DNA of 64,000 nucleotides from Bacteroidetes bacterium RIFCSPLOWO2_12_FULL_37_12 (GCA_001769655.1 MEPC01000023.1:124001-188000); one strand, 5' to 3'. Positions 1 through 4,757 are shown, counted from the stretch's first letter. Notes: generated from the sequence alone by a model not told the origin. Program-made: numbers and translations.

Positions 1-1881
1 GATCAAACTCTTTCTGCTGCTGTTTTCGACGAGTTTAAAGAAGCTGTAAAAGAAAATAAAAAAATGCTTGTGTTTATAAAAGACTATAATAAATTATCCG
101 AACAAAAATTAGAAATTATAAACTGTCACGAACTACAACTATTCATCACAGAAAGTGAATTGATTTGGTTTTATAGAAAAATTAAATCAATAAAATTTGA
201 ACCATACAAGTCACTTATAAATTATTATGAGAAATTAATAAGCGGAATTCGTCAATATGATCAAAGAAATGGAATTCCAGAAAACCTTTGGAAATATTAT
301 ATTTATGATGATGATTCAGAATTTCAAAGAATAAATGAAGTATATGTTAAACCAAAACAATATGACATTGCAGAAGAATTTATTAAAAGAAATAAATTTT
401 TAATAATTATTGGATCTGCGAATATTGGCAAAACATCTTTAGCATTATTTCTTTCATCCAAGATTTTACAATACTTCAATCTATCAAGTATCTTTAAAAT
501 TGAAAATGAGCATATACTTAATATAAAAAATATCAAAAACTCAGTAATAATATTAGATGATGTTTTCGGAAAATCAGAATTAAAAACTAATTATGTAAAT
601 GATTTTGAAGCAATTATAAGACTTAAAGAAAATAATTTCGTAATCTTAACTTCAAGAGAGAATTTGTTGCTCGAATTAACAAGAACGAGAAATAGATTTA
701 GTGAATACTCAAATTCTGAATTAGAACCTTATTTCATAAAATTAGAACAAGAGGGTACTTATTCTAATATGGATTTGAAAAATATATTAGAAAATCATAT
801 TAATTACTATGTTAATAATGGGACTATAAAGAGAAGCGATACTCAAATTACTTTTAGGAATAAAGAAAGAATAATATCTGAATTGAGGTTCCCACACAAT
901 TATGAGTTATTCGTTAGAGAACAATTAAGTAAGTTTTCAAAAGGTGAAGTAGATATAGATCGAGCAATAGAGAATGCTAAACATATAAAGCGTGAAGCAA
1001 AAAATTGGTTTTTAACATTAGATATAAATAAAAAAGTATTTATTTTACTCATATATTTCTTCCAGGGAATAAAACCTAAAATATTTAATGCTATTTATAC
1101 TGCACTCGTCCAAAAATTAAAAGAAAGGCATATTAGTTTAAATCTAATAAGAATTGATGATTTAAAAAACATGACATCACATTTTGTAACTGTTTCAGAT
1201 ACTATCCGATTCAGACATTCTAACTATTTAGAAGGTGTGAGTGAAGGTATACGTGATAATTTCTTAACAGAAACAGAAATGATTTTTTCTAATTTAAAAC
1301 TAATTCTTTATCCTTATCTTAAAAGAAATATTTTTTCTTTATACTACTTGAGAAAATTTACTGATATGTTTCTTGTAAGACCTCTTGTTTTTGTTTTTTT
1401 ATCTTTTACTTCTCCTCTTATTTGGTCTATTGGAATATTGATTAAGCTTGAAAGTAAAGGTCCGACCATTTATAGACAGATAAGAATTAGAAGTGATGGA
1501 AAACCAATACTTTGTATTAAATTTAGAACAGTAACTATAAGAGAGTATGATAAAATTTATAGTAATATAGATAAACCTGAAGTTACTAAAGTTGGACAGT
1601 TTTTAAGGAGAACTGGGTTAGCTAATTTGCCCCTAATTTTTAATGTTTTGAAAGGCGACCTTAGTATTTTTAATATGTCGGAAACATATAAGGTAAAAGA
1701 TTGGGTAGAGTATCTTCCTCCATATAAATCAAGTGAATTAATTGAGCTTAAAAATACAATAAGATATTCAATACCTAAATTTTATGCTCTAATTCCAGAA
1801 TTTACTACCAGTGTGATTAAGAAATGGAAATCTGATAAATATTCAGAGATTCGAGAAATTGCTATGTCATTTAAAGTTTAA
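1..1881 (+). CDS. STAND-type NTPase fused to a degenerate phosphoglycosyl transferase domain (5' truncated)
   Basis: The frame is open from base 1, so the true start lies upstream; residue numbers count from the first in-frame ATG at 64. The stretch just before and after that ATG (KENKKMLVFIKD) resembles a DUF4062-type effector-associated domain, but weakly. Residues 117-125 (GSANIGKTS) are a Walker A loop and D165-D166 in VIILDDVFG a Walker B, followed by VILTSRE, as in STAND/nSTAND3 NTPases of antiphage proteins. From about residue 428 the protein becomes a monotopic phosphoglycosyl transferase (bacterial sugar transferase) domain: a hydrophobic re-entrant helix with Ser-Pro, KGPTIYRQ, KFRTV, TKVGQFLRRTGL and FNVLKGDLS. 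The catalytic Asp-Glu of the usual SLDELPQ is A520-N521 here, and the GPRP motif after KGDLS is also gone. I infer a membrane-bound NTPase with a dead enzyme domain, probably a defence protein. The domain calls come from motifs only. Confidence 0.72.
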   Translation, partial: DQTLSAAVFDEFKEAVKENKKMLVFIKDYNKLSEQKLEIINCHELQLFITESELIWFYRKIKSIKFEPYKSLINYYEKLISGIRQYDQRNGIPENLWKYYIYDDDSEFQRINEVYVKPKQYDIAEEFIKRNKFLIIIGSANIGKTSLALFLSSKILQYFNLSSIFKIENEHILNIKNIKNSVIILDDVFGKSELKTNYVNDFEAIIRLKENNFVILTSRENLLLELTRTRNRFSEYSNSELEPYFIKLEQEGTYSNMDLKNILENHINYYVNNGTIKRSDTQITFRNKERIISELRFPHNYELFVREQLSKFSKGEVDIDRAIENAKHIKREAKNWFLTLDINKKVFILLIYFFQGIKPKIFNAIYTALVQKLKERHISLNLIRIDDLKNMTSHFVTVSDTIRFRHSNYLEGVSEGIRDNFLTETEMIFSNLKLILYPYLKRNIFSLYYLRKFTDMFLVRPLVFVFLSFTSPLIWSIGILIKLESKGPTIYRQIRIRSDGKPILCIKFRTVTIREYDKIYSNIDKPEVTKVGQFLRRTGLANLPLIFNVLKGDLSIFNMSETYKVKDWVEYLPPYKSSELIELKNTIRYSIPKFYALIPEFTTSVIKKWKSDKYSEIREIAMSFKV

Positions 1882-2320
1882 TAGCAAAGAACTCAAATGA
1901 CACAAATTTCAAACAATATGATTAAAAAAAACATACTTTTAAAAATTATATCCGCCAAATTTTGTTTTCAAAACATTTAAATGTACTATGAACTATATTA
2001 GTGATTCTTTTTTTTTACATGACGAAAAGAATATTTCAATAGCATTAATACCTTGTTGTAAAGTTTTTTTTACAATAACAATTCTTCTTTCTTTGATTAA
2101 TTACTTTTTTATATTTGAGAGATACGCACATCATTGTCAAACGGAAATGAGCATATCCATGGTACCCATCTATTTATAATTTCAATTTTAAGGTTATAAA
2201 TAATTCATTGAGTAAAATTACTTTGCTGAATGATGGAATATGATTTATTTTAGTAATTTTGGCAACAAATTAAAGTAAGTTTTTTCGAAAGCTGACGCTT
2301 ATTACAATATTTGAAATAAT
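1882..2320. other. gene-free stretch
   Basis: Very AT-rich spacer of about 440 bases between the NTPase and the HEPN-like gene. It holds a 63-codon open frame (1988-2179) with no recognisable protein character and a promoter-like box near 2254. I see no repeat or RNA gene here. Confidence 0.5.
2254..2261 (+). promoter_or_regulatory. candidate -7 promoter box for the HEPN/ATPase unit
   Basis: TAATTTTG matches the Bacteroidota -7 element TAnnTTTG and lies about 60 bases before the ATG at 2321. A TTTG at 2222-2225 is farther upstream than the usual -33 spacing, so this is a weak call. Confidence 0.35.
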
Positions 2321-3028
2321 ATGAAAAGATTAACCGAAGAAATAATTAAATCACTACACTTAAAGTTCGGGGATAATTTAAAGCTATGCTTTTCTGATGA
2401 TATTACCATGCTCGAAGAGGTAGAGATTAAGTCAAGGGCATCCTATCTATTAGGACAGATGTTTCATGGTGACATTGATATTTCTGACACGCAAAAAGAA
2501 ATCACCGCCATTTACCCAGAAATATTTACTGACTTAAGTGTCTCCATTTACTTAAGCTGTTGTGCAATCGACAATTCTCCAAAAATTTTACTTAGGCGTG
2601 TTTTAGAACTTGGTATAGCGATAGTATACTTATGGGACATGCCTTATAAATACTGGAATTGGAAAAAGAATGACGATTACAATAATGATTTGAATTTCAA
2701 AGAAATGTTGGACTATCTAAATAATGCAGGATATATAGATTTTGTGAATTATGAAAACAGTTCTTCAATCACAGAATTTATCAATAAAAATGTAATAAAT
2801 AAAGTTTATCGTGAATTAAGTAATGTTATTCATGGAAAGTTAGAGAATTTCGAATCTAACAATCCCGATAGATTCAATCATAAAAAAGAAGACTTAATAC
2901 ATATATTGAATTATACACTTAAAATTGAGAATATACTTCTATCCATATGGAAAGCCCGGTTTCCTATCCACTTTTCTAAGATGGAAAAAGAATTATTAGC
3001 AATATCAAAATATAACTATGATTACTGA
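2321..3028 (+). CDS. HEPN-like protein of unknown function
   Basis: A 235-residue, mostly helical, charged protein without signal peptide or membrane segment. Near the C-terminus YRELSNVIHGK gives an Arg-x6-His pattern (R164 and H171), the type of motif (R-x4-6-H) that forms the RNase active site of HEPN domains; 'LSNVIHG' is a common form in HEPN-like families. The stop codon overlaps the next gene by 11 bases (3018-3028), so the two are almost certainly co-translated. HEPN proteins are frequent toxins or RNase effectors in defence and toxin-antitoxin systems, and pairing with a P-loop ATPase fits that. The family assignment is an inference from one motif; the rest of the sequence is not one I recognise. 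Confidence 0.6.
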   Translation: MKRLTEEIIKSLHLKFGDNLKLCFSDDITMLEEVEIKSRASYLLGQMFHGDIDISDTQKEITAIYPEIFTDLSVSIYLSCCAIDNSPKILLRRVLELGIAIVYLWDMPYKYWNWKKNDDYNNDLNFKEMLDYLNNAGYIDFVNYENSSSITEFINKNVINKVYRELSNVIHGKLENFESNNPDRFNHKKEDLIHILNYTLKIENILLSIWKARFPIHFSKMEKELLAISKYNYDY

Positions 3029-4757
3029 TACAAATAAAGATCTTGATTTGCTTCAAGCAGCTAGATGCGAGGATCTTAAGTATGATGAAATAAAGAACTT
3101 AACTGTTCTGAGTAATTATGAAAGAGAAATCGTTGATAAATTAAAAATGCCAGGAGCACACTTGTTACAAGGAGCAAGGGGTGTTGGAAAGTCGCAATTA
3201 TTACGACAAGCCGAAATAGAGATAGATGAGCATTTTAATACAGAAAAAAAAATATCGATATACATAAATTTTAAAACAAGTCCGTTGTTAGAGGGTATCA
3301 GTATTAATGATAAGAATGCCTTCCAAGTGTGGGTTGGCGCAAAAATCTTACAGAGTGTACATCAAAAATTGGAATTTTTAAATTTGATCAACTCTCAAAA
3401 CTCTGACGATCCGTATCAAAAAATATTTAATATTGGTAGTGCAAATATTACTCAAGAATTTCTTTCAGAGAAAATTCACCAAATTCAAAACTATGCGCTT
3501 GCAGCTGACAAAGAGTTAGAATCTAAGAAAATTGGTAGTGATTTTATTGATAAGGTAAATGACATCAATTTCATAAGGGATACACTTGTAACATTGGTTA
3601 GTAAGCTTAACGTAGATAGGGTAATTTTCCTATTTGATGAGGTCGCACACACTTTTATTCCCGCCCAACAAGAAATCTTCTTTGAAATATTCAAGTTGTT
3701 ACATGGCAATTCAATTGCTGTCAAAGCAGCTGTTTACCCTACTGTTACTTCGTATGGTAAGAATTTTGAAATTGGACATGATGCAATATTAATTTCACTC
3801 GATCGATTTGAAACAGGGACAGGATTACTTCAGATGCGTGAATTATTCAGAAATTTATTTAATAAAAGAACTGAAGAAAATAGTAATCTAAGAAAACGAA
3901 TATATTCTAAGGGTGAATTATTAGATCAGTGTATTTACATGTCTTCTGGAAACCCAAGGGCATTCTTGCATATTCTGTTAAGGGCAATTGATAAGGGTTA
4001 CAATGTCTATGGTGTAAATTCAGCCATACAAGAATATGTTGATGAGGAATTAATTCCATACCACAATCAAGTTGCAAGAAGACTTCCAAGATTTGCTAAT
4101 CATGTATCAAATGGTCTTGATTTAACTAGAAATTATCTAATTAAAGAAATTAAAAATAAAAATGACAGGGAAAAACAATCCGGATATCAGTCAGCTTTCT
4201 TCACCATAGACCGTGATATTTCTCCAAACTTCAAAATCTCTTTGGACTTGCTTTGTTACTCAGGTATTCTTACTAAGAAGGGTACGGTAAAAATCGCATA
4301 TAAGAGAACTGGTCAAAGATATATGGTTCATTTAGCACTTATGATTACGGAAAAAGCATTTACCACAAATAACATTATAGATGCTGTAAATGCATTAAGT
4401 TTAACTGATTATCGAGAGTTCAGCAGTACAGATTCCAATATTGTAAAGTATTCACTGAAGATAAAGGAAGGTGGTGATTTGTGTGGAAAATGTGGGGAAG
4501 AAGTAGCATTAGATGCTAAATTTTGTTCTCACTGTGGTGAACAAATTGAAAGAACCTCATTAATAAGCAAACTTTTGGATGATTCAATAGAGCAAATTTC
4601 GATTAGTTATGGAATTGCAAAGAGGGTAAAGGAATATTATCCAAAGGTTGGTGATTTACTGCAAGTAACAAAAACTGACTTAATGGAAATCGGCTACATT
4701 GGGCCAATTCGATCAAGAATTGTAAAAAATGCTGTTGAAGAATATATTTCCGGATAA
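3018..4757 (+). CDS. P-loop ATPase with zinc ribbon and helix-hairpin-helix
   Basis: A 579-residue cytoplasmic protein. Residues 52-59 (GARGVGKS) are Walker A; D207-E208 in VIFLFDEV are Walker B. The arrangement (HLLQGARGVGKSQLL, then SGNPRAFLHILLRAI) is that of the AAA/STAND-like ATPases near the ORC/Cdc6 and Sll1717 groups. C489, C492, C503 and C506 form a zinc ribbon (CGKCG and CSHCG). The last 60 residues (about 515-579) contain a helix-hairpin-helix-like segment, LMEIGYIGPIRSRIV, typical of DNA contact. The start overlaps the HEPN-like gene. I infer a sensor or switch that controls the HEPN partner, with DNA or nucleic acid binding at the C-terminus. No nuclease motif is visible in the protein itself. 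Confidence 0.7.
   Translation: MITDTNKDLDLLQAARCEDLKYDEIKNLTVLSNYEREIVDKLKMPGAHLLQGARGVGKSQLLRQAEIEIDEHFNTEKKISIYINFKTSPLLEGISINDKNAFQVWVGAKILQSVHQKLEFLNLINSQNSDDPYQKIFNIGSANITQEFLSEKIHQIQNYALAADKELESKKIGSDFIDKVNDINFIRDTLVTLVSKLNVDRVIFLFDEVAHTFIPAQQEIFFEIFKLLHGNSIAVKAAVYPTVTSYGKNFEIGHDAILISLDRFETGTGLLQMRELFRNLFNKRTEENSNLRKRIYSKGELLDQCIYMSSGNPRAFLHILLRAIDKGYNVYGVNSAIQEYVDEELIPYHNQVARRLPRFANHVSNGLDLTRNYLIKEIKNKNDREKQSGYQSAFFTIDRDISPNFKISLDLLCYSGILTKKGTVKIAYKRTGQRYMVHLALMITEKAFTTNNIIDAVNALSLTDYREFSSTDSNIVKYSLKIKEGGDLCGKCGEEVALDAKFCSHCGEQIERTSLISKLLDDSIEQISISYGIAKRVKEYYPKVGDLLQVTKTDLMEIGYIGPIRSRIVKNAVEEYISG

Follow-up and report, generated by a model that had tools for sequence, protein, structure and literature searches.

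A coupled gene pair

Do two overlapping genes near the start of the window (the whole 64,000-nucleotide stretch that was analysed, G000:C23:124001-188000 in a 3.9-Mb genome) form a unit in which an ATPase controls an RNase, and does that unit act against phages? The first gene, P0001 (2321..3028, + strand), codes for a 235-aa, all-helical, HEPN-like (DUF5677-like) protein, here called the partner, and the second, P0002 (3018..4757, + strand), for a 579-aa AAA+ ATPase of the ORC/Cdc6 type that carries a zinc ribbon and a C-terminal helix-hairpin-helix (HhH). The two reading frames share 11 bases (3018..3028, + strand), an arrangement that suggests translational coupling, and the coordinates of both frames and the length of the overlap agree exactly with the original prediction.

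Conservation and distribution of the pair

Relatives of the ATPase were gathered from genome contigs (26 loci), viral contigs, plasmids and genomes of the phylum, for a total of 34 loci examined. In all 34, the ATPase gene is immediately preceded, in the same direction, by a homologue of P0001, a finding that answers the question of whether the homologues occur together or apart, set as a test of the prediction. Most of the pairs overlap or lie no more than 24 bp apart, and at nearly all of these loci the overlap or gap measures at most 26 bp, the exceptions being L028, owing to its start-codon call, and two broken copies, L042 and L044, in which the ATPase gene is interrupted. Moreover, close copies of the partner (above 230 bits) and of the ATPase are found in the same three of 395 genomes of the phylum only, and the partner matches of lower score in these 395 genomes (25-61 bits) come from paralogues with a different setting.

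The two proteins also diverge together. Specifically, the distances between partners and those between ATPases correlate with r=0.93 over 31 loci (reached in 0 of 2000 permutations), and the correlation holds inside the clade of long (0.90) and that of short (0.93) ATPases. Both genes are under purifying selection, with a dN/dS between L019 and L023 of about 0.13 for the partner and about 0.05 for the ATPase; together with the invariant synteny, these values, well below 1, place the proposed two-gene unit beyond chance. The partner is the faster-evolving member, at 60% identity to its L019 counterpart versus 80% for the ATPase.

The carriers span approximately ten phyla as labelled in the records, several of them being metagenome-assembled genomes (MAGs), and include Bacteroidota, Bacillota, Acidobacteriota, Verrucomicrobiota, Nitrospirota, Desulfobacterota, Campylobacterota, Pseudomonadota, Cyanobacteriota, and a Methanophagales archaeon. 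The ATPase relatives at 79-80% identity belong to Bacteroidota, and a copy with 69% identity in a Tissierellales MAG indicates lateral transfer. The copy of E. coli SCU-316 (L018) shows frameshifts scattered through both genes, which are probably assembly noise, and it was left out of the analysis for this reason.

The ATPase

P0002 scores 37.7 bits against the Pfam family ORC-CDC6-like (PF24389), whose curated cut-off is 27. The Walker A motif GARGVGKS (codons 52-59, 3171..3194, + strand; G52, R54, G55, G57, and K58 invariant), the Walker B motif FLFDE (codons 204-208, 3627..3641, + strand; D207 and E208 invariant), and an invariant sensor-2-like GNPR motif (codons 311-314, 3948..3959, + strand) are kept in 31 of 31 ATPases, so that P0002 should hydrolyse ATP. 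Downstream of this core lie a zinc ribbon (C489, C492, C503, and C506; 4482..4535, + strand; Zn_Ribbon_1 E 1.6e-6) and an HhH tail (4560..4754, + strand) that resembles the C-terminal domain of the RNA polymerase alpha subunit (alpha-CTD; E 1e-4); the tail bears a weaker likeness to the zinc-plus-HhH part of NAD-dependent DNA ligase. Hence, the Walker motifs, the four cysteines and the C-terminal HhH that had been read from the window are all in place, and the view of P0002 as a true ATPase with a tail of predicted DNA-binding type is supported. The zinc ribbon is kept in the clade of the window copy and deleted in a clade of ATPases of about 540 aa (it is absent from 12 of 31 relatives); hence, the module does not depend on it.

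An AlphaFold2 model of P0002, built from 30 relatives (pLDDT 86.4), is consistent with this assignment. Its best Foldseek match is Cdc6/Orc1 on origin DNA (E 4.4e-7), and RdrA, the ATPase of RADAR (8hr8), is also among its matches, together with TnsC and many ORC subunits. After the lid, the model shows a helix (residues 403-415) followed by two strands (418-426 and 430-437), an order that is compatible with a winged helix.

The protein ends with the residues EYISG (window 4740-4754), and the pattern E-[YF]-x-x-G is found at the C-terminus of 30 of the 31 ATPases. EYISG and its close variants are nearly invariant even among ATPases down to 24% overall identity, and such conservation of the last five residues hints at a possible docking tail. 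Membership of the MADS system was considered and rejected: mad8 matches 15 of the 34 ATPases weakly (best 2e-5), the match of the window copy (0.0012) covers part of the AAA region only, and no mad operon is seen around the window copy.

The partner and the HEPN question

The AlphaFold2 model of P0001, built from 32 relatives, is of high confidence (pLDDT 94.5, pTM 0.91) and purely helical, with helices at residues 64-80, 85-105, 156-171, and 189-213 and an insert at 108-146. Five residues, namely R92, E96, Y163, H171, and R213, are invariant among very divergent relatives. In the HEPN superfamily, as described by Anantharaman et al. 2013 (PMC3710099), the Rx4-6H motif ends helix 3, helix 2 often holds an acidic residue, and inserts occur between helices 2 and 3. 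P0001 follows this layout: E96 lies inside helix 85-105, the equivalent of helix 2, as part of an R92-x3-E96 element (codons 92-96, 2594..2608, + strand) that is conserved in 34 of 34 partners, and H171 lies at the end of helix 156-171, the equivalent of helix 3.

The R-x6-H motif on which the HEPN proposal was originally built (codons 164-171, 2810..2833, + strand) stands only in part. R164 and H171 are both at the predicted positions and H171 is conserved (33 of the 33 copies that reach the position), but R164 is present in 23 of 34 partners, the same number as have any arginine 5 to 7 residues before H171. In 10 of 33 intact relatives R164 is replaced by G (as in the E. coli copy), S or K, and a truncated copy has Q, whereas R92, E96, H171, and R213 do not vary. 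Furthermore, at least one Rx4-6H occurs in 41% of shuffled P0001 sequences. In view of the lack of conservation of R164 and this chance-level frequency, R164-x6-H171 is rejected as the catalytic signature. The loss of the arginine has a precedent in the Parep1/8 HEPN family, which keeps the H and has lost the R (PMC3710099). If P0001 is an RNase, then R92, E96, and H171 would be, judging from conservation, better candidates for its catalytic residues than R164.

Fold and profile searches return no confirmation of the HEPN assignment. The P0001 model has no significant Foldseek match in PDB and BFVD, as may occur with all-helical proteins, and a profile search of PDB sequences for HEPN relatives of P0001 returned nothing meaningful. 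Profile-profile comparison of the P0001 family with the RiboL-PSP, AbiU2, and MAE_28990 HEPN families gave no match, the comparison alignments being small (2-8 sequences), and neither Pfam nor PADLOC gives a firm HEPN match to the partners. Moderate support is obtained for DUF5677 (PF18928) only: its Pfam model picks up 10 of the 33 partners, with a best E of 6.5e-5, and two partners scored singly reach 18.0 and 16.3 bits, the cut-off being 27.1. Likewise, hhalign aligns the P0001 family with DUF5677 at E=5e-4 and gives a hint of DUF4145 at E=0.012, in both cases with small target alignments. Since the layout fits and the fold and profile searches bring no confirmation, P0001 is best called HEPN-like by the layout of its model rather than a proven member of the superfamily.

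Genomic setting

Upstream of the pair, the order of genes is a 363-aa protein and a D12-class adenine methyltransferase (L006:15211-17186), an nSTAND3 gene, and then the pair itself. The first two genes overlap and are possibly a restriction-modification (R-M) pair with an unrecognised endonuclease. The nSTAND3 gene confirms the NTPase that had been noticed next door; it runs on the + strand from L006:17809-18000 into window 1-1881, starting 192 bases before the window, and codes for about 690 aa with an nSTAND3 domain (E 2e-18) and a C-terminal sugar-phosphate-transferase domain (Bac_transf, E 3e-21). Its product begins MKSKIFISSRMNYECQEERLF, a start that, in our reading, presumably recalls DUF4062. 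A glycosyl-phosphate transferase would be an unusual effector of a STAND protein.

At 28-33%, the GC content of the pair is lower than in the genes that come after it (about 36-43%). Just before the pair lies an AT-rich element (2177..2298, + strand), of which copies are found upstream of the nSTAND3 gene (L006:17615-17734) and at two other loci of the genome (G000:C38:16376-16460 and G000:C35:28639-28723). The copies are about 85-120 bp long, 73-81% identical, in the same orientation, and located shortly before gene starts, namely those of the pair, of the nSTAND3 gene and of two or more others. The element could be a shared promoter or 5' region or a recombination site; with regard to an integron-like site, it contains no significant hairpin and folds no better than its shuffles.

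Elsewhere, the pair adjoins a variety of genes. A type IIG R-M gene lies about 100 bp upstream of it at L025, its neighbours at L026 are a PtuB/PDC-M01B-like gene and type I HsdS, a methyltransferase overlaps it at L032, and a ResIII/SNF2 helicase adjoins it at L014. PADLOC, run on 100 pooled neighbours, also returned the AriA, PtuA, AbiLi, Druantia methylase, and mad3 models, taken here as raw model matches. The neighbours at other loci are housekeeping genes, including PurL (L033) and a molybdopterin oxidoreductase (L027), and for this reason the pair seems able to act alone. No third gene is constant, and the neighbours share almost no homology between loci. On plasmid p2 of Planktothrix agardhii (L007), the pair belongs to a row of genes that also codes for a protein of the PAPS-reductase family, a DEAD/DEAH helicase, and an HATPase protein, and is perhaps part of a larger multi-gene system.

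In E. coli, the pair is present in 4 of 5,426 genomes, at no less than 98.8% identity, one copy being NZ_CM129873.1:3651383-3653802 (WP_061352521/WP_061352522). There it lies directly before an integrase remnant, at the end of an integrase-bearing element that also carries a DNA primase-family gene; an integrase is also present in 5 of the 6 virus-classed records that match the E. coli pair. Among GenBank phage records none holds the pair, few plasmids carry it, and most copies are chromosomal, at unrelated sites and often in R-M neighbourhoods. A mobile or defence-island setting thus holds for part of the loci, and with mobile DNA and R-M genes around these the defence context first suggested for the pair gains support from the neighbourhood.

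Related triads and a sister branch

The P0001 family has relatives in other ATPase-containing modules. Among the related ARRANGEMENTS are triads made up of a ParA-like ATPase, a protein of about 160 aa, and a DUF5677-like, HEPN-like protein, and the partner family shares homology (hhalign E 1e-15) with a protein of these triads. Such triads are located at G000:C42 (L063:6454-11848), L064, L065, and L070. The triad in the window's own genome adjoins a BanI-type restriction enzyme and a methylase, and another is near a gene that reads by eye as SIR2-type; the ParA-like triad is a candidate for a defence or toxin-antitoxin module of its own.

The ATPase has a distant branch as well (L008-L010, 22-27% identity), in which a small partner is encoded downstream; L009 and L010 also have a methyltransferase gene on the upstream side. 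The L008 partner alone gives a sub-threshold match to HEPN_RiboL-PSP (E 0.0012), and the L008-L010 partners together align with it weakly (E 8e-5, 61% probability). This branch is a sister system, and the comparison of sequences suggests that ORC-like ATPases of this kind may have been paired with HEPN-like proteins more than once, a repetition that favours a model in which the ATPase controls the HEPN-like protein.

Function of the pair

The tight coupling and the obligate co-occurrence of the two genes are also what a toxin-antitoxin system would produce, in which the partner would be an RNase toxin with constitutive activity and the ATPase the matching antitoxin, the two mainly maintaining mobile DNA and affecting phages secondarily. 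HEPN dyads with a ParA-type ATPase have indeed been proposed as toxin-antitoxin systems (PMC3710099), and the partner family recurs in the ParA-containing triads. Yet an antitoxin would hardly need an AAA+ machine of this size, equipped with conserved motifs for hydrolysis and a tail of DNA-binding type, and L042 keeps an intact partner beside its interrupted ATPase, in a MAG contig that may contain an assembly error; on balance, this explanation is unlikely. Alternatively, the partner could be a non-catalytic recognition or scaffold subunit of a TnsC- or ORC-like DNA-loading machine that recruits neighbouring nucleases or R-M enzymes. The variable arginine of Rx4-6H, the lack of fold or profile proof of a HEPN domain, the faster evolution of the partner, the R-M neighbours at several loci, and the presence of TnsC among the Foldseek matches would all suit such a role. 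Nevertheless, five invariant residues, four of which are charged or histidine, look like an active site when they persist across very divergent sequences, and a recruiting machine fits poorly with the lack of a consistent third gene, making this possibility rather unlikely.

A role outside defence, in which the pair would serve the replication or maintenance of plasmids, satellites or integrative elements by means of a borrowed ORC/Cdc6-like initiator, would be in line with the similarity of the ATPase to ORC/Cdc6 and with the integrase and primase-family genes of some carrier elements. It is nonetheless very unlikely, given that the copies are mostly chromosomal and scattered over unrelated sites, often among R-M genes, and are absent from GenBank phage records and rare on plasmids.

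The reading that best accounts for the obligate and co-diverging pair, made up of an ATPase with an ORC/Cdc6 fold in its model and an HhH tail and of a helical partner with five invariant residues, is that of a self-contained two-gene anti-phage module, in which the ATPase is the sensor and the partner a predicted non-canonical HEPN-like RNase effector. A probability of roughly 0.4 is assigned to it, and it is weakened by the unconserved R164, the lack of a significant fold match for the partner, and the housekeeping neighbours at several loci. Under this anti-phage reading, the ATPase would engage, through its HhH tail and the zinc ribbon where present, DNA or a replication or transcription intermediate made during infection, and would otherwise keep the bound helical partner silent. 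ATP-dependent assembly or a conformational change would then activate the partner, which may cut RNA with an active site formed by H171 with R92 and E96, and not by R164, so as to stop growth or phage production. Complex formation, the DNA trigger, the RNase activity, and growth arrest are steps that we infer, and the original idea, in which foreign DNA would be sensed by an ATPase with a tail of DNA-binding type and a putative RNase set free, makes a reasonable model. A wider proposal is distinctly tentative, namely that an ORC/Cdc6 ATPase with an alpha-CTD-like tail was co-opted by a stand-alone immune module to sense DNA or the replisome and would there control a non-canonical HEPN-like RNase with an R-x3-E/His site instead of Rx4-6H, and that this RNase would belong to a large DUF5677-like family whose members have various P-loop ATPases as partners, in bacteria as well as in archaea.

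If the pair does serve in defence, it would be an unlisted two-gene module spread across approximately ten phyla and easy to test, as natural E. coli isolates carry it intact, and it would bring another kind of P-loop ATPase, besides the ParA and ABC/DUF499 types, to the control of HEPN-like effectors. In addition, the large DUF5677-like family would gain a function, and the question of whether HEPN-type RNases work without the R of Rx4-6H would become testable.

Comparison with known systems

No description of the pair was found in Pfam, NCBIfam, PADLOC or the open literature, a search that may miss closed-journal and bioRxiv reports and systems published after PADLOC-2023; PADLOC has no model for it. 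In the open literature, the combination of ORC-CDC6-like with HEPN leads to the BREX paper PMC12839542 only, and DUF5677 to a single unrelated paper. The pair resembles the RADAR, PARIS, and HEPN-DUF499 modules, in which an ATPase is joined to an effector, but belongs to none of them.

RADAR (RdrA/RdrB) likewise combines an ORC/STAND-like ring ATPase, with the RdrA ring (8hr8) among the Foldseek matches, and a separate effector. However, the RADAR ATPase has about 830 aa versus the 579 aa of P0002, and the effector differs, as the adenosine deaminase RdrB is absent here and its place is taken by an all-helical 235-aa partner with no Pfam or PADLOC match. PARIS (AriA/AriB) is likewise a two-gene cassette of an ATPase and an effector and is carried by phage satellites (PMC9122126), but AriA is a different ATPase, AriB is a Toprim nuclease (PMC12409363), and neither the AriA nor the AriB model matches P0001 or P0002. 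The DUF499-centred, BREX-related systems and the HEPN-DUF499 fusions (PMC12839542) also unite an ATPase of the ORC/Cdc6 class with a HEPN domain; in contrast, the pair described here has neither the DUF499 architecture nor an obligate methyltransferase or helicase, and its partner is encoded separately and comes from a different family.

The HEPN/ParA-Soj dyads, predicted to be toxin-antitoxin systems (PMC3710099), and the triads share with the pair the coupling of a small helical HEPN-like protein to a P-loop ATPase. The ATPase there is ParA, whereas here it is an ORC/Cdc6-type AAA+ protein with an HhH tail, and the order and number of genes differ; moreover, the HEPN protein of the published dyad belongs to MAE_18760 (PMC3710099) and may be of another family than P0001. 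With DUF5677 (PF18928), itself a family with no assigned function, the P0001 family has the R-x3-E helix in common. Lastly, compared with the Pfam ORC-CDC6-like family (PF24389), P0002 stands out by two additions, an optional zinc ribbon and an HhH at its C-terminus, and by its link to one specific partner.
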